In this document: positions 2,871 through 11,372 of the stretch, one piece after another
How positions within the stretch are numbered: the stretch's first letter is position 1
Layout of the letters: every line of letters begins with the position of its first letter
Assembly (NCBI GenBank): GCA_031254445.1
Contig: JAIRUL010000287.1
Coordinates: 1 to 11,372, forward strand
Direction: 5' to 3'
Origin: Chitinispirillales bacterium
Lineage (GTDB): Bacteria; Fibrobacterota; Chitinivibrionia; Chitinivibrionales; Chitinispirillaceae
DNA: 11,372 nt
Translations under genes and position numbers: made by a program
Notes under the pieces: model-generated
What the model was told of the DNA's origin: nothing
Seen by the model: the letters and a program-made list of their open reading frames with translations, nothing else
Databases searched by the model: none

Positions 2871-3929
2871 TCACTTCACCCTCACCATAACCTCTATGGT
2901 CTGCCCCTCGTCCGAGTCCGCTACCGCCGGAAACAGCCAGCTTTTCATGTCTAGCGCCGCGAGGTCGTCGAAGCGTTTGGTTTGAATCTTGGAGCGGCGG
3001 AGCTTGAAGCCGGTGACCGCGCCCTCGGGCGAGACGGTCATGCGGATGTCCATAGCGTCGGGGACGGCTCGCGGGTCGTAGCGGCGGGCGAGCTCGTCTA
3101 ATACTATGGGTTTATAGTATGAGCGTATCAGCGACTCGATAGCCCCGGCCCGCGCGAAGAACGGCACGGCGTCCATGGAGCGCGCGAGCGTCTTTTTGGA
3201 GAACCAAGGCAATGTCGCCGACGCGGGGCATGCCCCTAGAGTAATCTTATCTATGGCGCTTAGGATAGCGGCGTTGCCGGGAAAGAATTTCTTGATGTCG
3301 CCGACATACGGCCGGTACTCGCGCCGGTTGACAGTCAATACGGCATTATTACCGGCGCCGTCAACGCCGCTATTATTATTGATACCGCTAACATTATTAG
3401 CGCCGCCGCCCTCCCCTATCCCTATCTGCCAAATCTCGTCCACCTGGCTCGCCCCGTAGCAAGTGTCCAAGCCGTTGGCGAATATCTGCCTGATGATGCG
3501 CACCTCGCAGTAGTAGGATCTGTTATCGGGGCTGTAGGAGTAGGGCCTAACATACCCGTACATGACATGCGTCATTGTGTGCCGCTCGCCCGAGGGGGTA
3601 TTGATGTCCCACGCGCTCACCATCCACAGCATCCCGTTGTCGATGAGCTCCATGCTCTCCCGCTTCGCGACCGGGGAGCTTTCGGGGTCGCCCTCGGCGT
3701 AGACCCTTAATCCGGCGATCGCCTTTTGCACCTCAAGAGACTTGGCCGAATCGAACTGCTCGAGATTCTTAAAGTTCTCGAAGTCGGAGTGGAGAAGGCT
3801 TGCGAGCCCGGAGGGGAGCCCGGACTTCCGCATCCCGTCTATCATTACCCACGAGATGACGAACAAAAGCGCTAGCAATAGCCCTGCTTTGTACGACGGG
3901 TATTTTCTGAGTTTCACGCGGGACTTCAT
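2871..3929 (-). CDS. single-span membrane protein with TonB/AgmX-like C-terminal domain
   Basis: The product is 352 residues. It has a basic N-terminus and one hydrophobic segment (about 15-30), fitting an inner-membrane anchor with a periplasmic body. A Gly/Asn-rich low-complexity stretch (about 171-197, with GGGANN, INNNSG and GAGNNA) splits the middle. The last ~90 residues (about 264-352) resemble TonB/AgmX-type C-terminal domains: MTVSPEGAVTGFKL (297-310), then a WLFP motif (331-334) and a final VMVRVK strand. The usual proline-rich spacer of TonB is absent and no ExbB/ExbD genes are nearby, so an energy-transducing role is not shown. The ATG at 3929 lies 2 nt after the folE stop, with GGGAGG in the last folE codons as ribosome binding site, so translation is probably coupled to folE. 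The middle region is unrecognised. Confidence 0.75.
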   Translation of the reverse strand: MKSRVKLRKYPSYKAGLLLALLFVISWVMIDGMRKSGLPSGLASLLHSDFENFKNLEQFDSAKSLEVQKAIAGLRVYAEGDPESSPVAKRESMELIDNGMLWMVSAWDINTPSGERHTMTHVMYGYVRPYSYSPDNRSYYCEVRIIRQIFANGLDTCYGASQVDEIWQIGIGEGGGANNVSGINNNSGVDGAGNNAVLTVNRREYRPYVGDIKKFFPGNAAILSAIDKITLGACPASATLPWFSKKTLARSMDAVPFFARAGAIESLIRSYYKPIVLDELARRYDPRAVPDAMDIRMTVSPEGAVTGFKLRRSKIQTKRFDDLAALDMKSWLFPAVADSDEGQTIEVMVRVK

Positions 3930-3931
3930 GG

Positions 3932-4477
3932 TTACCTCCCTATAAGCCTCAAAAATTCCATCCTTGTCTCCGGCTCGCCCCTAAAGCTGCCGAGCATCGA
4001 CGAGGTTACCATTACCGAGTTTTGCTTTGACACGCCGCGCATCATCATGCACAGGTGGCGCGCCTCTATAACTACCCCGACGCCCTCGGCGCCTATCGGT
4101 TCCATTATTGTTTCGGCAATCTGCCTTGTAAGCCGCTCCTGCAGCTGTAGGCGGCGGGAGAAACTGTCGACGACGCGCGCGAGCTTGCTCACGCCGTAAA
4201 CGCGCCCCTTGGGTATGTAGCCGATGTGGCACTTCCCGAAGAACGGCAGCAGATGGTGCTCGCACACGCTGTACACCTCGATGTCCTTGACGATAACCAT
4301 CTCGTCGGACTCTTCGGTAAATATTGCGCCCTTGAGAATGCCCGCCGGATCCTGCGAGTACCCCTGCAATAGGTGCTCCCAAGCGCGCGCCACCCGCGCC
4401 GGCGTATCGCGCAACCCCTCGCGCGCGGGATCTTCGCCAATAGAGGCGAGGAGCTGTTTGACGATGTCTTCGGTCAT
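3932..4477 (-). CDS. folE: GTP cyclohydrolase I (FolE)
   Basis: FolE converts GTP to 7,8-dihydroneopterin triphosphate, the first step to folate and other pterins; it is a cytoplasmic multimer. The product is 181 residues. [13 protein letters not shown] (21-33) matches the family N-terminal motif. [19 protein letters not shown] (71-89) carries the Zn ligands Cys72 and His75. [20 protein letters not shown] (95-114) follows, and HLCMMMRG (141-148) gives the third ligand Cys143. The 71-residue spacing between the two cysteines equals that of the E. coli enzyme (110 and 181). The ATG at 4477 is preferred, with AAGGG about 9 nt upstream; the longer frame begins at a TTG (4501) inside repeat-like leader sequence. 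It heads the run folE-TonB-like-pdxA and is divergent from the HTH gene. Confidence 0.95.
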
Positions 4478-4504
4478 TTTTGAACCCTTGTTTAAAGACA
4501 ATAT

Positions 4505-4820: not shown

Positions 4821-4907
4821 ACATTGAACATTGGGCATTGTTCATTCGTTGGGCGTTGTTGCGTTGGGCGCATAAAACGCGCCCGAGATAAACAAGTTGA
4901 GCATTGT
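4821..4907 (+). repeat. degenerate heptamer array and hairpin in the HTH gene leader
   Basis: Units acattga, acattgg and gcattgt are contiguous (4821-4841). After an interruption come tcgttgg and gcgttgt (4846-4859), then gcgttgg (4861-4867), with an isolated gcattgt at 4901-4907. The core is again CRTTG. The last units run into a perfect 6-bp hairpin, gggcgc-(7 nt)-gcgccc (4866-4884). An open frame extends through this array from 4824, but its composition is that of the repeat, so it was not used as coding sequence. Confidence 0.65.
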
Positions 4908-4922
4908 TCAGTGGAGGGTCTT

Positions 4923-5558
4923 GTGGGACTAAAAGGCAAGGGTGCGCTTGTGCGGAGCTGCGAAGCCGCCAAGATACTAGGCGTTTCTCGTGAATACGTA
5001 AGGCAGATGGTCATAAACAAAGTTCTGCCCCCGCGTTACCTTTTCAACGCGAACTCGTGGCGCAAGATCTACATCTTCGACCGAAAGCTCGTAGAGCGCT
5101 TCAGCAACCCCTATCTGCGCAAAAGCGTAAAGTGGACGGAGCCCGAGAAGTGCAGCTGGATGACCGCCGTCGAACTTTCCAAGGTACTCAAGTGCAACGC
5201 CGACTGGATATACAACGCAACAAAGAAAGGCTTCTTAGAACCAGAAATAGTTATATCGAGCAGCAAGCAGCAGTTCCGCCTCTACGACAAAAAGAAAGTC
5301 GAGGCGGCCATGGCCCAAAACATAGACAGGCGCAGCGGCCGCAAGGGGCACTCCAAAAAAACGCTGCTGCTCATGGAGAAGATCAAGTACTTTCACTCCA
5401 GAGGCATGAACGACAGCCACATAGCCATAAGGACAAGATCCACACAACCGTTCATTTCAAAACTGCGCAAAGAACTCGGCCTAATATCAAACGCAAGGAT
5501 AGCCTCGGCAAAGCGGCGCGAGGCGCTTATGGCGGCGCAGAAACACAAAAGACGTTGA
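4923..5558 (+). CDS. DNA-binding protein with three helix-turn-helix-like units
   Basis: The product is a basic 211-residue protein, probably a cytoplasmic DNA-binding regulator. Unit 1 (about 12-33: SCEAAKILGVSREYVRQMV) looks like an excisionase/MerR-type HTH and is followed by a winged stretch with aromatic residues. Unit 2 (about 80-102, with TAVELSKVLKCNADWIYNA) is a second copy of that kind, followed by FRLYDKKKVEAA. Unit 3 (about 161-186, with NDSHIAIRTRSTQPFISKL) looks like a resolvase- or Hin-type HTH. The tail is rich in Lys and Arg. No catalytic recombinase or ligand domain is seen. The start is the GTG at 4923 with GGAGGG at 4913-4918 (short 4-nt gap); the longer frame upstream is repeat sequence. 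It is the only plus-strand gene and is divergent from folE. Its target is unknown. Confidence 0.75.
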   Translation: MGLKGKGALVRSCEAAKILGVSREYVRQMVINKVLPPRYLFNANSWRKIYIFDRKLVERFSNPYLRKSVKWTEPEKCSWMTAVELSKVLKCNADWIYNATKKGFLEPEIVISSSKQQFRLYDKKKVEAAMAQNIDRRSGRKGHSKKTLLLMEKIKYFHSRGMNDSHIAIRTRSTQPFISKLRKELGLISNARIASAKRREALMAAQKHKRR

Positions 5559-5648: not shown

Positions 5649-7448
5649 TTAGATCCCGGTCTCTATATAAGGAATCCTCTTCATCAAATCCCCTAGAAGC
5701 CTCGCGTTCAAATTCTTCAGCCACGCTAACATGTCATCCATCGACTCTATTACGTCTATGTGCGAGATGCTCTCCGCGGCTTCGGCGAAGCTTATGTTGG
5801 ATATTATTTCTTTTATTAGCGGGATGCTCCTCGGCATGACGCTGAACCTGCGCAGGCCGAGGCCCACTAAGAGCACGGTGTGCAGCGGATGGCCCGCCAT
5901 CTCGCCGCATATCGACAGCGGCTTGCCGTTGTCGTTCGCGACCTTGATGGAGTTTCTTATGATACGCAAGAACGCGGGCTCTACGGGGTTGTAGAGGTAG
6001 TTGACCTTGGAGTTGTTGCGGTCGGCGGCGCTCAGGTACTGTATGAGGTCGTTTGTGCCGATGGACGCGAAGTCTATCTCTTTCATGAACGTGCCCATCT
6101 CTAGTATGGCGAGCGGAACCTCGAAGAGCACGCCGCACTTCGGCATCGGCATCTCGAGCTTCGACGCTATCTCGCGTATGAACGCCTTCGCCTCGATCCA
6201 CTCTTGCAGGGTGGTGACCATCGGAACCATTATCGAGTAGTCGTAACCCTTGCCGGCCTTTAGGATGGCGGCGACCTGCGTCTCGAAAATATCTTTGCGT
6301 TCTAAGAATATCCTTATCGCCCTCCAGCCCATAAATGGGTTGAACTCCTGGGGCATGTCGAAAAACTGCGGTATCTTGTCGCCGCCTATGTCCATGAGCC
6401 TTATCGTGCAGTGCTTGCCGGCGCCCTTGCTCAGTATGGCCTCGTAGTAGGCTAAGTGCGCCTCCTCGGTCGGCATCTCTTTGCGGTTGGAGAGCAGGTA
6501 CTCGGTGCGGACTAGGCCGATGCCGTCCGCGCCGTTTTCGACGGCCTCGTTGGCGTCTTCGGTGAGCGAGAGGTTGGCCAAAACCTCTATCCGCACGCCG
6601 TCGCGCGTGTAGACGGGGCGGCTCCACTTCGCCTTGAGCTCCTTGTAGATCGTCTCGCCGTGCGTCTGCTTCAGGTAGCGCTCTACGACGTAAGCCTCGG
6701 GGTGGACGAAGACATTGCCCTTGTCGGAGTCTACTAATACTTCGTCGCCAGGCTTGATGTGGTCGGAGATGTTGCGTACGCCGGAGATGACCGGGATGTT
6801 GTAGGAGCGCGCCAAAATCGCCGCATGCGAGGTTTTACCGCCGCTCATCGTTATGACGGCGCGGATCTTCGAGCGGTCGTAGGAGAGTATGTCGGTAGGC
6901 GTGAATGTGCGCAAAACGACTAAGACCACAGGTTCGGCGAAAGTCTTGGCGCGGCCGCTCTCGCTCGACAGGTAGGAGACGAGCTTCTCGCAAACCTCGA
7001 CCATGTCGCTCGAGCGCTCCTTGAAGTAGGAGGTGCCGGAGGACTCGAAGCGCTTTATGAAGTCGTTGGAGACGGTTCTGATGGACGTCTCGAGGTTGAA
7101 GAGCTTGACGGAGATGGTCTCCACCACTTGGCCTATGAACGCAGGGTCGTCTAAGATGTTTTCGTATATGTTGAGGATGGAGGCGTCTACGGTGCTTTCG
7201 CGGTCTAAGTCCTGTATGAGCTTTTGGTAGTCTTTCCTCGCATTGTCGCGTATCTCGTTGAAGCGGATGATCTCGCTGCCCACCTCCTCGCGCGAGATTG
7301 CGGCCTCGATGGTCGCGTCCTGCTGCTGTATGGTGCGCCCGATGAAGTAGGCCTTGCCGTGCCCCCACCCCGAGACAACGGACTCGCCCGCGAGCTCTTT
7401 GGGCTCTTTTTTGACGGCGGCGCTATTGTCGGACTGGCCATTTTTCAT
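5649..7448 (-). CDS. ptsI: phosphoenolpyruvate-protein phosphotransferase (PTS Enzyme I)
   Basis: Enzyme I takes phosphate from phosphoenolpyruvate and passes it to HPr, the first step of PTS sugar uptake and signalling; it is cytoplasmic. The product is 599 residues, slightly longer than the usual ~575, with a 20-30 residue hydrophilic N-terminal extension. There is no GAF domain, so it is EI-like rather than the nitrogen-PTS form. The phosphorylated histidine is His208 in SGGKTSHAAILARS (202-215). The PEP-binding half shows GIGLVRTEYLL (309-319), MDIGGDKIPQF (352-362), NPFMGWRAIR (370-379), GTNDLIQYLSAADRN (464-478) and SICGEMAG (512-519) with catalytic Cys514. All key residues are present. 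The near-N-terminal SPG common in Enzyme I is replaced by WGH (about 28-30). The ATG at 7448 follows GGGTGA. The phosphorylase homologue is 112 bp upstream; no HPr gene is in view. Confidence 0.9.
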   Translation of the reverse strand: MKNGQSDNSAAVKKEPKELAGESVVSGWGHGKAYFIGRTIQQQDATIEAAISREEVGSEIIRFNEIRDNARKDYQKLIQDLDRESTVDASILNIYENILDDPAFIGQVVETISVKLFNLETSIRTVSNDFIKRFESSGTSYFKERSSDMVEVCEKLVSYLSSESGRAKTFAEPVVLVVLRTFTPTDILSYDRSKIRAVITMSGGKTSHAAILARSYNIPVISGVRNISDHIKPGDEVLVDSDKGNVFVHPEAYVVERYLKQTHGETIYKELKAKWSRPVYTRDGVRIEVLANLSLTEDANEAVENGADGIGLVRTEYLLSNRKEMPTEEAHLAYYEAILSKGAGKHCTIRLMDIGGDKIPQFFDMPQEFNPFMGWRAIRIFLERKDIFETQVAAILKAGKGYDYSIMVPMVTTLQEWIEAKAFIREIASKLEMPMPKCGVLFEVPLAILEMGTFMKEIDFASIGTNDLIQYLSAADRNNSKVNYLYNPVEPAFLRIIRNSIKVANDNGKPLSICGEMAGHPLHTVLLVGLGLRRFSVMPRSIPLIKEIISNISFAEAAESISHIDVIESMDDMLAWLKNLNARLLGDLMKRIPYIETGI

Positions 7449-7560: not shown

Positions 7561-9966
7561 CTATATTATCTTCCAAACGCTGGCCGCGAAGTCCCTAACA
7601 AGCCTATCCGTCGAGAACCACCCCATCCTCGATATGTTGAGCAGGCATTTGCTGTCCCACGCCCCTTTGTTCTTGAAGAGGGCGTCTACGGCCTCCTGCT
7701 TATTAATATAATCTGCGAAATCCAATAAAACAAAATTTCTGTCGGCATCTCTTAAAGAAGAGAGCAGCGGGTAGACGGTGTGGCCGTCGGGAATCTTTGA
7801 CAAGTGGGAATCTAACAACGCGAATATCGCTCTCAGGCTTTCGCTCTCCGCGAGTATTTTCGCGGGGTTATAGCCGCCGTTCATGGACAAAAGTTCCTCC
7901 GCGGTCTTCCCGAAAGCGAAGATATTCTCTTCGCCGATGCGCTTTATGAGCTCGATGTTCGACCCGCCGCGGCTCGCCACCGTTAGGACGCCATTGAACG
8001 CGAACTTCATGTTGAACGTGCCGCACGGCTCGAAAGGGGCGGTCGATATCTGCTCCGATAGGTCGGCGGCGGTAACGAGCCTCTCGGCCCAGCCCACGCC
8101 GAAGTTGGGGATGAACGCCACGCGCATATACTCGCGCGCCTCGGGGTCGCCGTTTACGATGTCGGAAACGATGTTGACAAGGTGGATGATTTGCTTGGCA
8201 AGGAAATCCGACGGCGAGGCCTTGCCCGCAAAAATGTGCGCGCGGCGGCACATGCTCTTCTCGCCGCTCTTTATCTTGAGGTAATTGTGCAGGATGTACA
8301 GTATGTGCAGCGTTTGGCGCTTAGACATGTGGATTGGCCGGCTATGGACGTCGAAGAGCATCGTGGCGTCGAAAGCCACCCCAAACATCTCCCTAAGCGA
8401 CGCGCAGAGCTCCGACTTCGCCCTGCTCTTCACGTTTGCGAACGCTTTCAGCGTCTCCGCGCTTTTCGCGTAGTGCTCAAGCTTAGATAGCTCCTCCGAC
8501 CTCCGCACCCACCCGTCGCCGATCGCGCGCGTGATGAGGGCGGAGAGCGGCCTATTCGCGCAGTGCAGCCAGCGGCGGTGAGACACGCCGCTCGTCTTGC
8601 AGTTGAACTTTTCCGGGTACTGCCTATAGTAAATCGGGAAAACGTGCTTCGTGATAATCTCCGTGTGCTGCGCGGAGATGCCGCTGACCGAGCTCGACCC
8701 GAGCACCGCCATATCCGCGAAGCGTATGCGCTTGACCTCTCCCTCCTCGATAAGGGAGATGTTGCGCATAAGATCTACGTCGTGCCCCGAGTGCGAGCGG
8801 AGATAGTCTAGGTGCTCGGCGTTTATGTCGAAAATTACCTGCATCACCCTCGGCAGAAGCTGCCCTATCTTGTAGACCGGCCACGTCTCGATGTGTTCGC
8901 GGTGAACCGCGCTGCTCGAGTAGGAGAAGATGCTCTGCGTCATGCCCCACGCCCTCTTCCACTCGATGCCCTCGTGGTCTACGAGCAGGCGCATCATCTC
9001 GGGGATGGCGAGCGCGCAGCGGCTGCCGTTTAGGTGTATCGCCACCTTGGCGTCGAGGCCCTCTATGCTCCCGCAGTTGTGCTTGTGGCGGCGGATAATG
9101 TCCTGAATGACGGCGCTCACAAAAAAATACTGCTGGCGGATTCGCAAGTCGTGAGCCCGCCGCACGTCTTCGTCGGGAAAGAGCACCTTGGTGATGCGCC
9201 CCGACTGCGACTTCTCCTCGCAAGCGCGGACGTAGTCGTTGTGGTTCTGGTAGTCGGGCAGAAACTCCTCGCTCGCCCGCGCCGACCAAAGGCGCAGCGT
9301 GTTGACCGCATCGTTGCGGTAGCCCACAATCGGGACGTCGTAGGGGACGGCGTAGACCTCCTCGGCGTTCTTCCACTCGTAGGGGCCAAGCGGCTTGCCA
9401 TTGTCTACGCGCGCTATGTCGCCGGAGAACTTCACTACGCAGGCGTACTCGGGGCGCACAATCTCCCACGGGTGCCCCTTGTGCAGCCAGTCGTTGGGGA
9501 ACTCCACCTGCGACCCGTTCTTTATCTCTTGGCGGAACTGCCCGAAGTCGTAGCGCATCCCGTAGCCCATAGAGGGCAGCCCAAGCGTGGCGATAGACTC
9601 CAAGATGCAGGCCGCCGAGCGGGCCTTGCCGCTGTTGCCGAGGTCGAAGTCGTCGTCCTTCTCAAAAAGCCCCCTGAAAGATATCCCAAGGGAGTTGACC
9701 GCCTCCGTGAACGCCTCCTCGATCCCGAGGTTGACCATGTTGTTGTAGAGGCTCTTCCCGAGCGTGTACTCCATAGAGAGGACATAGACCCTGCGGCTGC
9801 CGATGTGCTCGCGCTGCGTGCTTATCCAGTGGCTGACAAACTCGCTGCGCACCGCGTAAGCTAGCGCCATAAAACGGTCATAGTCGGTCGCGGACATCTC
9901 GTCCTTCGCAAGGATATTGCGGAGGTAGAGAGTGTACGTATCGCGCAGATGTCTGAAGTCTATCAT
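7561..9966 (-). CDS. glgP: divergent glycogen/alpha-glucan phosphorylase homologue, possible pseudoenzyme
   Basis: The product is 801 residues, full length for the GT35 phosphorylases, which split alpha-1,4-glucan with phosphate to glucose-1-phosphate using pyridoxal phosphate. The fold is clear throughout: VYVLSMEYTLGKSLYNN (60-76), ATLGLPSMGYGMRYDFG (126-142), VNTLRLW (221-227), QDIIRRHK (288-295), AADLSEQIS (633-641) and NMKF with the PLP lysine Lys654. Many active-site positions are changed, using rabbit muscle numbering as known: the glycine loop GNGGLGR is GNSGKAR (110-116); NDTHP is NGSRC (313-317), so His377 becomes Arg; SHSVNG is SSSVSG (424-429), so Asn484 becomes Ser; KRIHEYK is RPIHMSK (543-549), so Arg569 becomes Pro and Tyr573 becomes Ser. 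Activity as a normal phosphorylase is doubtful. It has its own candidate promoter, a weak ribosome binding site, and ptsI downstream. Confidence 0.85.
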   Translation of the reverse strand: MIDFRHLRDTYTLYLRNILAKDEMSATDYDRFMALAYAVRSEFVSHWISTQREHIGSRRVYVLSMEYTLGKSLYNNMVNLGIEEAFTEAVNSLGISFRGLFEKDDDFDLGNSGKARSAACILESIATLGLPSMGYGMRYDFGQFRQEIKNGSQVEFPNDWLHKGHPWEIVRPEYACVVKFSGDIARVDNGKPLGPYEWKNAEEVYAVPYDVPIVGYRNDAVNTLRLWSARASEEFLPDYQNHNDYVRACEEKSQSGRITKVLFPDEDVRRAHDLRIRQQYFFVSAVIQDIIRRHKHNCGSIEGLDAKVAIHLNGSRCALAIPEMMRLLVDHEGIEWKRAWGMTQSIFSYSSSAVHREHIETWPVYKIGQLLPRVMQVIFDINAEHLDYLRSHSGHDVDLMRNISLIEEGEVKRIRFADMAVLGSSSVSGISAQHTEIITKHVFPIYYRQYPEKFNCKTSGVSHRRWLHCANRPLSALITRAIGDGWVRRSEELSKLEHYAKSAETLKAFANVKSRAKSELCASLREMFGVAFDATMLFDVHSRPIHMSKRQTLHILYILHNYLKIKSGEKSMCRRAHIFAGKASPSDFLAKQIIHLVNIVSDIVNGDPEAREYMRVAFIPNFGVGWAERLVTAADLSEQISTAPFEPCGTFNMKFAFNGVLTVASRGGSNIELIKRIGEENIFAFGKTAEELLSMNGGYNPAKILAESESLRAIFALLDSHLSKIPDGHTVYPLLSSLRDADRNFVLLDFADYINKQEAVDALFKNKGAWDSKCLLNISRMGWFSTDRLVRDFAASVWKII

Positions 9967-10038: not shown

Positions 10039-10067
10039 AAAATAATTTATTGCATAGGAAAAGTCAA
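10039..10067 (-). promoter_or_regulatory. candidate promoter for the phosphorylase gene
   Basis: On the minus strand TTGACT (10067-10062) is followed after 17 nt by TATTTT (10044-10039), within an AT-rich stretch (10021-10080) that allows other -10 boxes. It lies about 75 bp upstream of the ATG at 9966 and just beyond the terminator of the preceding gene, which fits independent initiation. Confidence 0.45.
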
Positions 10068-10085: not shown

Positions 10086-10111
10086 AAGGGCGGACACACC
10101 GGTCCGCCCTT
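10086..10111 (-). terminator. Rho-independent terminator of the glycosidase gene
   Basis: A perfect 10-bp stem (aagggcggac / gtccgccctt) encloses a 6-nt loop. On the minus strand it is followed immediately by a run of T (plus-strand A run at 10079-10087), the classic form. It lies about 75 bp after the stop of the glycosidase gene and acts in that direction only; there is no T run on the plus-strand side. Confidence 0.9.
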
Positions 10112-10184: not shown

Positions 10185-11372
10185 CTATTCAAGCGTAACC
10201 GTCACAAGCGAATGCGCCGGAATTGACATCTTCATGCCGGGTTTCACCTCCAGCGACTCTTCGCTTGGCCCCTTTTTCGCGTTTTCGGGGGTCAGGAGCT
10301 GCTTTTTGGCTTTGCCTTGGAAACCGGGTACGTTGATCGTCAGGTCTACGACCGTTTTCGGGTGCTTGTTTACTATCATCAGCGACTTTTTCTTGCCGTC
10401 CAACGTATAGTAGCTCGAAACGCGGTCGTTTCCGGTGCTCGACTCTAAGAGGGAGCCGCGGCCGAGGCTGTGGCTCGCCATCTTGAAAGCGAAGTACGAC
10501 GGGCGTGGGACGTTATCGCCGTCCGGCGCGCCGGTGCGCGATAGGTAGCCGTAATCGCCGCCCTGGGGGGTGATGCTGTTGTGAATATCCCAGTACGACG
10601 CCTGCTCGACGTTGTGGCGCGTGAGCATGCCGAGATAGTCGGCCGCAAAGAGCGCGTTTACGATGCCAAGCGTTTGGGGGCCGGGCTCGAAGTCTACGGA
10701 GTTCCACTCGGTGAGCCATATCTCGTACTTCTTGCCGGGCGTGCCGTACTGCTCAATCTGCTTCCTCACGTTGGGGAGGATGTCGTTCAAGGTCTGCGGC
10801 GCGGCCAAGAGGCCGGCGTCGTTTTCCTGGCCGGCATTCTGCGGATAGTGGTGGACATTCACGCCGTCCACAATGTCCTTGAGCTCTTGGAACGTGATCT
10901 TGTTCCAGTCGTCCTCAAGCGTCCATACCGGGGTGACGAGAATGCTCGGATCGGCCGCCTTCATCTGCTTCACAAACTCTTTCGCGCGTTTGGCGTACTC
11001 CTCCGGCGTGCAGTGGTTGGCGTGCCAGCTGCCGTAGAGCTCGTTTCCGATCTCCCAGTACTTCACGTTCGCCTTTTTCGTCTTGTTTACGTGGGTCACC
11101 CACTTCGCGGCCTCCTCCGGCGTACCGGTGCCGAAGTTGACCGTTATCATCGGCGTCGTGTTCGTCTTCTTGCAGAACTCCAAGAACTCGTCGATGTCGA
11201 CCATCCAGTCCTTCTTCTTCAGCACCTCTTCCCAGTGGTCTTCGTCGGCGCGCAGCCCGCCCGGATAGCGCAGGACGTGGTGGTTTACATCTTTCACGAA
11301 CTTCTCCGTGGCCGGCAAGAGCAGGTCGCCGTCCCACAGCGCGGCGTTGATGCCGAAGAGGCCGCTATTGAT
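10185..11372 (-). CDS. arabinofuranosidase-like glycoside hydrolase, 5' end outside window
   Basis: The frame is open to the right edge; 395 codons and the stop are visible and the N-terminus is missing. Early residues show FGINAALWDGDLL, then LRYPGGLRADEDHW, a pattern found in alpha-L-arabinofuranosidase-like enzymes of the clan GH-A type. A glutamate in KYWEIGNELYGSW (visible residue about 111) is the likely acid/base. Another in IWLTEWNS (about 222) is the likely nucleophile; the ~111-residue spacing suits a TIM barrel. VNVHHYPQN lies between them. The last ~100 residues look like a small beta-domain, as in GH51 and related families. Such enzymes release arabinose or similar sugars from plant polysaccharides. 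Exact family and substrate cannot be fixed. A strong terminator follows, so it ends its own transcription unit. Confidence 0.85.
   Translation of the reverse strand: MNSGLFGINAALWDGDLLLPATEKFVKDVNHHVLRYPGGLRADEDHWEEVLKKKDWMVDIDEFLEFCKKTNTTPMITVNFGTGTPEEAAKWVTHVNKTKKANVKYWEIGNELYGSWHANHCTPEEYAKRAKEFVKQMKAADPSILVTPVWTLEDDWNKITFQELKDIVDGVNVHHYPQNAGQENDAGLLAAPQTLNDILPNVRKQIEQYGTPGKKYEIWLTEWNSVDFEPGPQTLGIVNALFAADYLGMLTRHNVEQASYWDIHNSITPQGGDYGYLSRTGAPDGDNVPRPSYFAFKMASHSLGRGSLLESSTGNDRVSSYYTLDGKKKSLMIVNKHPKTVVDLTINVPGFQGKAKKQLLTPENAKKGPSEESLEVKPGMKMSIPAHSLVTVTLE

Follow-up and report, generated by a model that had tools for sequence, protein, structure and literature searches.

A phosphorylase homologue with replaced catalytic motifs is encoded beside PTS Enzyme I in an order of Fibrobacterota

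Genes and features of the locus

We examined a contig of 11,372 nucleotides from a Chitinispirillales bacterium of the phylum Fibrobacterota (GCA_031254445.1, contig JAIRUL010000287.1; hereafter the window). It carries a gene for a full-length homologue of glycogen phosphorylase whose catalytic motifs have been replaced (hereafter the pseudo-phosphorylase), followed on the same strand by a gene for Enzyme I (EI) of the phosphotransferase system (PTS). Among allosteric enzymes, glycogen phosphorylase is a textbook case, and a lineage that keeps its scaffold without its chemistry would reveal what the non-catalytic surfaces of a phosphorylase do alone. A first-pass annotation, made from the sequence of the window alone, had singled out the phosphorylase homologue; it overlooked the adjacent EI gene, which is the strongest clue to a role. 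The window forms contig C205 in a metagenome-assembled genome of 1.97 Mb, 70% complete and divided among 301 contigs.

The intact reading frame of 801 codons described by that annotation is indeed open, on the minus strand, a point it had missed; the plus strand of the same stretch is interrupted by stops. The product matches TIGR02093 over its full length (832 bits; cut-off, 552.9) and PF00343 (781 bits). It is predicted to adopt the phosphorylase GT-B fold. Active-site positions are numbered as in rabbit muscle phosphorylase, using what we take to be the rabbit sequence. Lists of active-site, dimer/cap/tower, and storage-site positions are likewise those that we assume for this enzyme. The principal features, all on the minus strand, are as follows.

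5649–7448, minus strand: PTS Enzyme I (phosphoenolpyruvate [PEP]–protein phosphotransferase), 599 amino acids; downstream partner, presumably in the same operon (TIGR01417, 439 bits; cut-off, 342)
7561–9966, minus strand: pseudo-glycogen-phosphorylase, GT35 fold, catalytic motifs replaced; open frame, 801 amino acids
9619–9639, minus strand: GNSGKAR, residues 110–116, in place of the glycine loop GNGGLGR; rabbit Leu136 is Lys
9205–9255, minus strand: tower-helix region DYQNHNDYVRACEEKSQ, residues 238–254; His242 and Arg247 conserved in the clade
9016–9030, minus strand: NGSRC, residues 313–317, in place of NDTHP; Asp339 is Gly, His341 is Arg, and Pro342 is Cys (codons checked)
8911–8913, minus strand: Ser352, in place of rabbit His377 (YTNHT has become SSSA)
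8731–8748, minus strand: EEGEVK, residues 407–412, glycogen storage-site region, kept
8590–8592, minus strand: Ser459, in place of rabbit Asn484 (KTNG has become KTSG)
8320–8340, minus strand: RPIHMSK, residues 543–549, in place of KRIHEYK, the loop for phosphate and the phosphate of pyridoxal phosphate (PLP); Lys574 equivalent kept
8206–8208, minus strand: Asp587, where rabbit has Tyr613, close to the entrance of the active site; a hallmark of the clade
8011–8031, minus strand: EPCGTFN, residues 646–652, in place of EASGTGN; Ser674 is Cys, Gly677 is Phe, and the Glu672 equivalent is kept
8005–8007, minus strand: Lys654, at the PLP-lysine position (rabbit Lys680), kept

Active-site loss and constraint in the clade

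The altered strings that the first-pass annotation reported (NGSRC, RPIHMSK, SSSVSG, GNSGKAR, EPCGTFN, and GGSNIE) are all present, and it correctly identified Lys654 and Glu646 as the retained equivalents of rabbit Lys680, the PLP-binding lysine, and Glu672. Some of its residue placements need correction: NDTHP spans positions 338 to 342 and holds Asp339 and His341, not His377, which belongs to YTNHT, and Asn484 lies in KTNG, not in SHSVNG. All five residues that it named are nevertheless replaced (His377 by Ser, Asn484 by Ser, Arg569 by Pro, Tyr573 by Ser, and Ser674 by Cys). At the phosphate site, Lys568-Arg569-Tyr573-Lys574 reads Arg-Pro-Ser-Lys in the window. The concentration of these losses in the active site, also proposed earlier, exceeds chance. 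Among 148 positions that are nearly invariant in canonical GT35 proteins, the window keeps 12 of 42 in the active site and 63 of 106 elsewhere (Fisher test, P = 0.0009).

The same lesions recur across a clade. We compared the best 120 of 7,966 database matches, which include the window's own protein and 15 that match loci of our genome set identically over most of their length. Homologues with canonical motifs, which would have implied a sequence error here, were not found among them: NDTHP is kept in none, and Asp339 is lost in all 120. Position 342 is Cys and position 613 is Asp in every one of these homologues, and position 136 is Lys in 94. Residues around the cofactor are largely retained (Lys680 in 118, Glu672 in 118, and Thr676 in 116), as are Glu433 (116) and Lys437 (114) of the storage site. 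Roughly half of the homologues are still canonical at His377 (61), Asn484 (66), Tyr573 (65), and Ser674 (60); erosion in the window's genus has gone further than in much of the clade. The positions of tower residues His242 and Arg247 are conserved in 120 of 120 homologues, and are not unique to the clade: among 100 canonical homologues, 19 have the His and 21 the Arg. We considered, and rejected, the idea that the His at rabbit position 259 is a new phospho-acceptor; it is present in 120 of 120 clade proteins, yet His also occurs there in 19 of 100 canonical homologues.

A sister branch, family f7, which includes the cultured genus Chitinivibrio, has eroded a different part of the active site from families f1 to f6. 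We examined 20 f7-like homologues, three of which are already loci of the genome set; the next 100 listed matches are canonical. Arg occupies the PLP-lysine position in 17 of the 20 and Thr676 is lost in 19, while Asp339 is kept in all 20. Position 613 is Asp in all 20, against Tyr in the next 100, and the tower His and Arg positions are conserved in 20 of 20. Among the copies in our genomes, Cys342 is found in 32 of 34 from f1 to f6 and in 3 of 5 from f7, and Asp613 in 34 of 34 and 3 of 5, respectively, with Asn in the other two. Both branches have lost 19 of the 146 positions that hardly vary in canonical GT35, and f7 alone has lost 19 more. Because these 19 are gone from both, the loss looks ancestral. 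The simplest history would be a single ancestral loss of function followed by separate drift of the remaining catalytic residues, and glucan phosphorolysis was probably lost before the last common ancestor of the order.

We find the degenerate copy in 39 of 40 genomes of the order (G000 to G039; Chitinispirillales/Chitinivibrionales-type Fibrobacterota). The sole genome without it, G020, is 82% complete and in 750 contigs. The second, canonical phosphorylase that the first-pass annotation suggested looking for exists: canonical GT35 is seen in 34 of the 40 genomes (only as fragments in G007, G026, and G035, the one in G026 having been inspected), including the window's own, where GlgP lies on contig C225. 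The two copies sit on separate contigs in every genome that has both. In six genomes (G009, G014, G022, G023, G024, and G030), the degenerate copy is the only GT35 found. Four of these six are 90 to 99% complete, and G009, G014, G022, and G023 have strong glycogen-synthase-type (PF08323) matches.

Elsewhere in the phylum, 119 of 127 genomes have a GT35 match among the matches listed. No degenerate copy was seen outside the order: all 27 genomes with more than one match were searched again, and the pieces retrieved are canonical as far as they reach, a count that leaves aside the weak matches L218 to L221 (20 to 34 bits) and four short end pieces, and most single-match genomes were judged on score alone. 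In other bacteria, NDTHP or NETHP is present in 78 of 78 loci, all canonical (drawn from the best 80 of 587, the remaining two being pseudo copies).

The pseudo-phosphorylases form one branch (SH-aLRT 100). The approximately unbiased test does not reject a grouping with the canonical GlgP of the order (P = 0.68), and the tree constrained to that grouping is 15.3 log units better. Horizontal acquisition from another phylum, which we considered, is not needed given a single branch whose sisterhood to the order's GlgP is unrejected. A larger tree put the clade beside MalP-like long branches, a placement that we do not trust. One f8 genome carries a second, very divergent GT35 with intact motifs (L212; G090:C65:1140–3281), placed beside Escherichia coli MalP on a long branch.

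The clade is under purifying selection, which bears out the earlier view that its lesions are not random decay. The ratio of nonsynonymous to synonymous substitution rates (dN/dS; NG86 method) is 0.037 to 0.138 for the pseudo-phosphorylase (10 within-genus pairs), 0.037 to 0.129 for canonical GlgP (21 pairs), and 0.095 to 0.115 for EI (3 pairs); these ratios are rough, dS in most pairs being close to 1 or higher. As a homologue without residues held to be required for catalysis and under purifying selection, the protein would qualify, on sequence grounds, as a pseudoenzyme.

Constraint has also shifted within the protein. Averaged over all sites, conservation is 0.70 for the clade and 0.66 for the canonical set, the two sets being unequal in breadth (one order against many phyla). 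Active-site conservation is 0.77 in the clade versus 0.94 in the canonical set, dimer/cap/tower conservation 0.82 versus 0.62, and storage-site conservation 0.87 versus 0.76. Compared with all non-active-site positions, the dimer/cap/tower positions stand at 0.82 versus 0.69 in the clade and at 0.62 versus 0.64 in the canonical set. Eight of 27 newly constrained sites fall within the 73 dimer/cap/tower positions among 798 (P = 0.002). L074 and L075, copies of included pseudo-phosphorylases, were left out of the conservation, distance, and both-branch-loss counts.

Linkage to Enzyme I

By coordinates, EI lies directly downstream of the pseudo-phosphorylase on the same strand in 36 of the 39 genomes that carry it. 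In 35 of these 36, the matched stretches are separated by −22 to +70 nt; the gap is about 112 nt in the window. In the three genomes without an EI neighbor (G001, G011, and G036), the pseudo-phosphorylase ends at or near a contig end. The same-strand pair is present in 21 of 21 contexts that we examined, and in all 21 the phospho-His and the PEP-binding Arg, Glu, Asn, Asp, and Cys residues of EI are intact relative to E. coli ptsI, at what we take to be its active-site positions. The five f7 genomes retain the linkage. G020, which has no pseudo-phosphorylase, is also without the partner EI (best EI match, 36%).

Canonical phosphorylase genes do not share this neighbor. An EI-like open reading frame (ORF) was found in 0 of 20 canonical glgP contexts; 19 of these come from the order and one from G040, and each spans 4.8 to 18 kb. 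Nor was one found in any of 78 loci of other bacteria, whose median length is 16.5 kb and some of which reach only about 4 kb. The control flanks are of unequal length. The same kind of scan detected EI in 20 of 20 pseudo-phosphorylase contexts.

In the window's genus, there is no second full-length EI among the matches listed; for G001, not even the partner was found. Many of the order's genomes carry additional EI-like genes; nine of these (L273 to L277 and L279 to L282) are 30 to 36% identical to the window EI, with a C-terminus unlike that of the partner EI.

HPr was found in 39 of 41 genomes (one match in 28, two to nine in 11), away from the pseudo-phosphorylase operon in the six loci read, and EIIA-type domains in 41 of 41. 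In G040, which is outside the order, EI adjoins HPr instead. In the six loci (L225, L229, L230 = G000:C129, L242, L244, and L249), HPr lies between MCE/MlaD-like and homoserine-dehydrogenase-like genes, with an HPF-like gene also nearby in four; these neighbors are named from sequence reading. HPr kinase is close to HPr in G025 and G031. It was rejected as a part of the system, PF07475 exceeding its cut-off in only 4 of 41 genomes.

Other neighbors of the pair vary between families, except for FolE (12 of 21 contexts) and a TonB/AgmX-tail-like protein (14 of 21). In the window, these two lie at 2871–4501, with FolE at 3932–4501, although the choice of ORFs missed the window's own FolE in the neighbor count. 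The remaining features of the window are as follows; it contains no Rfam element.

4824–5558, plus strand: HTH_17/excisionase-like protein, found in only 2 of 21 contexts
10039–10067, minus strand: promoter-like site preceding the pseudo-phosphorylase (by consensus match alone, 9/12)
10086–10111, minus strand: terminator-like hairpin following the upstream gene (by consensus match alone, 10 pairs then a T run)
10185–11372: arabinofuranosidase-like ORF, cut at the contig end; 1053 to 1281 amino acids in three relatives

Possible roles and known systems

A predicted phosphorylase fold, a conserved loss of catalytic residues, purifying selection, and linkage to an intact EI gene together suggest that a catalytically dead phosphorylase has probably been kept as a regulatory partner of EI/HPr, linking the glycogen or energy state of the cell to the PTS relay. 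We infer loss of activity, co-transcription, physical contact with EI or HPr, ligand sensing, and a direction of control. The pseudo-phosphorylase would retain its fold, together with the glycogen storage site and a dimer/cap/tower surface under unusual constraint. Glycogen might be bound through the storage site, and the rebuilt pocket might sense glycogen or a small anionic ligand. Contact with EI or HPr could then tune phosphoryl flow from PEP through EI and HPr to EIIA. Alternatively, the state of the PTS could control the use of glycogen by GlgP via the pseudo-phosphorylase. A stricter version, which we put forward only tentatively, is that the pseudo-phosphorylase is an obligate allosteric subunit of EI, a dead-enzyme sensor of glycogen (or sugar phosphate) that gates phosphoryl entry to the relay, such that EI, rather than HPr or EIIA, reads carbon storage.

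Several points weigh against a regulatory partnership with EI/HPr, beyond the high dS values and the unequal conservation sets noted above. Gene linkage does not prove contact, and the function is proposed from sequence. The constrained interface could serve plain homodimers, and the structural categories rest on the position lists assumed above. The window's branch keeps Lys680, Glu672, Thr676, and mostly Lys574; PLP may therefore still bind, and some of the original chemistry, or an altered form of it, may persist. If glycogen has to be phosphorolysed, it would be surprising for the degenerate copy to be the sole GT35 found in six genomes.

The distances between genomes bear both on this partnership and on a second reading, that the protein is a regulatory or scaffold subunit of canonical GlgP, in a heterodimer, and is merely co-transcribed with EI for joint expression of glycogen breakdown and the PTS. 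Over 16 genomes, pairwise distances of the pseudo-phosphorylase track those of EI (r = 0.97) better than those of canonical GlgP (r = 0.85), and the partial correlation with EI given GlgP is 0.93 (0 of 2000 permutations as high). G027, whose canonical copy lies in a separate sub-branch, was left out; with it, r is 0.97 and the partial correlation 0.96 over 17 genomes. Without f7, the partial correlation drops to 0.34 (15 of 2000 permutations), and the pseudo-phosphorylase follows canonical GlgP (r = 0.94) more closely than EI (r = 0.86), which counts against the partnership with EI. Part of the distance signal is thus one joint acceleration in f7, because the correlation falls when f7 is removed; within f1, it is 0.60 (0 of 2000 permutations). 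Glycogen phosphorylase functions as a dimer, dimer/cap/tower positions are among those newly constrained, and canonical GlgP is at hand in 34 of 40 genomes, three of them with fragments. In the other six, however, no canonical GlgP was found and EI is adjacent in all six; the two copies always lie on different contigs, whereas EI is the fixed neighbor. We regard a GlgP subunit as unlikely.

A little less likely again is an active PLP-dependent phosphorylase or transferase with a new acceptor or donor and a remodeled, conserved pocket (Lys136, Gly339, Arg341, Cys342, and Asp613). In f1 to f6, 11 canonical positions have been replaced by another conserved residue. Because the PLP site is mostly kept there and six genomes show no further GT35, these families may have acquired a new catalytic activity, which stays a rival. 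Set against it, Asp339 and His341 are gone and Lys568 and Arg569 eroded, and the sister branch f7, in which most of the homologues examined have Arg at the PLP lysine and have lost Thr676, keeps the EI linkage in its five genomes; for this last reason, a role shared by both branches cannot need PLP chemistry. The first-pass annotation had proposed a new role or a new substrate. A role other than glucan phosphorolysis is probable, canonical GlgP being encoded elsewhere in most genomes; a new substrate is weakened by f7, although the window's branch keeps the lysine. Neutral decay, a pseudogene, a chimeric assembly, or sequencing error can be set aside despite the incomplete and fragmented source assembly, given that no stop interrupts the listed matches of 39 genomes, that the copy recurs in independent genomes, that the same substitutions occur in all 120 best-listed homologues, and that dN/dS is 0.04 to 0.14.

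Databases annotate clade proteins as glycogen phosphorylase, for example in Chitinispirillum alkaliphilum. The label is probably misleading, and metabolic models that adopt it would count a reaction that is probably absent. C. alkaliphilum has been isolated in culture, and the portion of its description available to us mentions glycogen and phosphorylase, and not PTS or HPr (PMC4814513). Among the titles and abstract openings of the open-access papers listed by our searches, we found no degenerate GT35 and no EI-phosphorylase operon. Regulatory pseudoenzymes and cross-talk between the PTS and glycogen are already known; an order-wide GT35 pseudo-phosphorylase beside EI was not found in those same titles and openings. 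Through its fixed pairing with EI, the pseudo-phosphorylase offers a link from carbon storage to the PTS that is direct and open to testing, in a group with chitin degraders among its members.

Three known systems invite comparison. Relative to the GlgP/MalP proteins of GT35 (TIGR02093 and PF00343), the clade differs in NDTHP, YTNHT, KRIHEYK, EASGTG, the glycine loop, and Tyr613, in the replacement of the PLP lysine in most of one branch, and in having EI as a fixed neighbor. The partner EI shares the domains of PTS Enzyme I (TIGR01417), with phospho-His and PEP residues intact, but has about 10 extra C-terminal residues relative to the E. coli protein and lies behind the pseudo-phosphorylase, whereas in G040 and E. 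coli the gene is beside ptsH. The closest functional parallel comes from E. coli, where HPr is reported to interact with GlgP and to regulate its oligomeric state and activity (PMC11046441), and where a GlgP-HPr complex has been deposited (PDB 9s8k). Both cases link the PTS relay to a phosphorylase-fold protein. In E. coli, the phosphorylase is catalytic and is not encoded beside ptsHI; here, a degenerate copy is the one linked, its PTS neighbor is the gene for EI, and HPr is encoded elsewhere.

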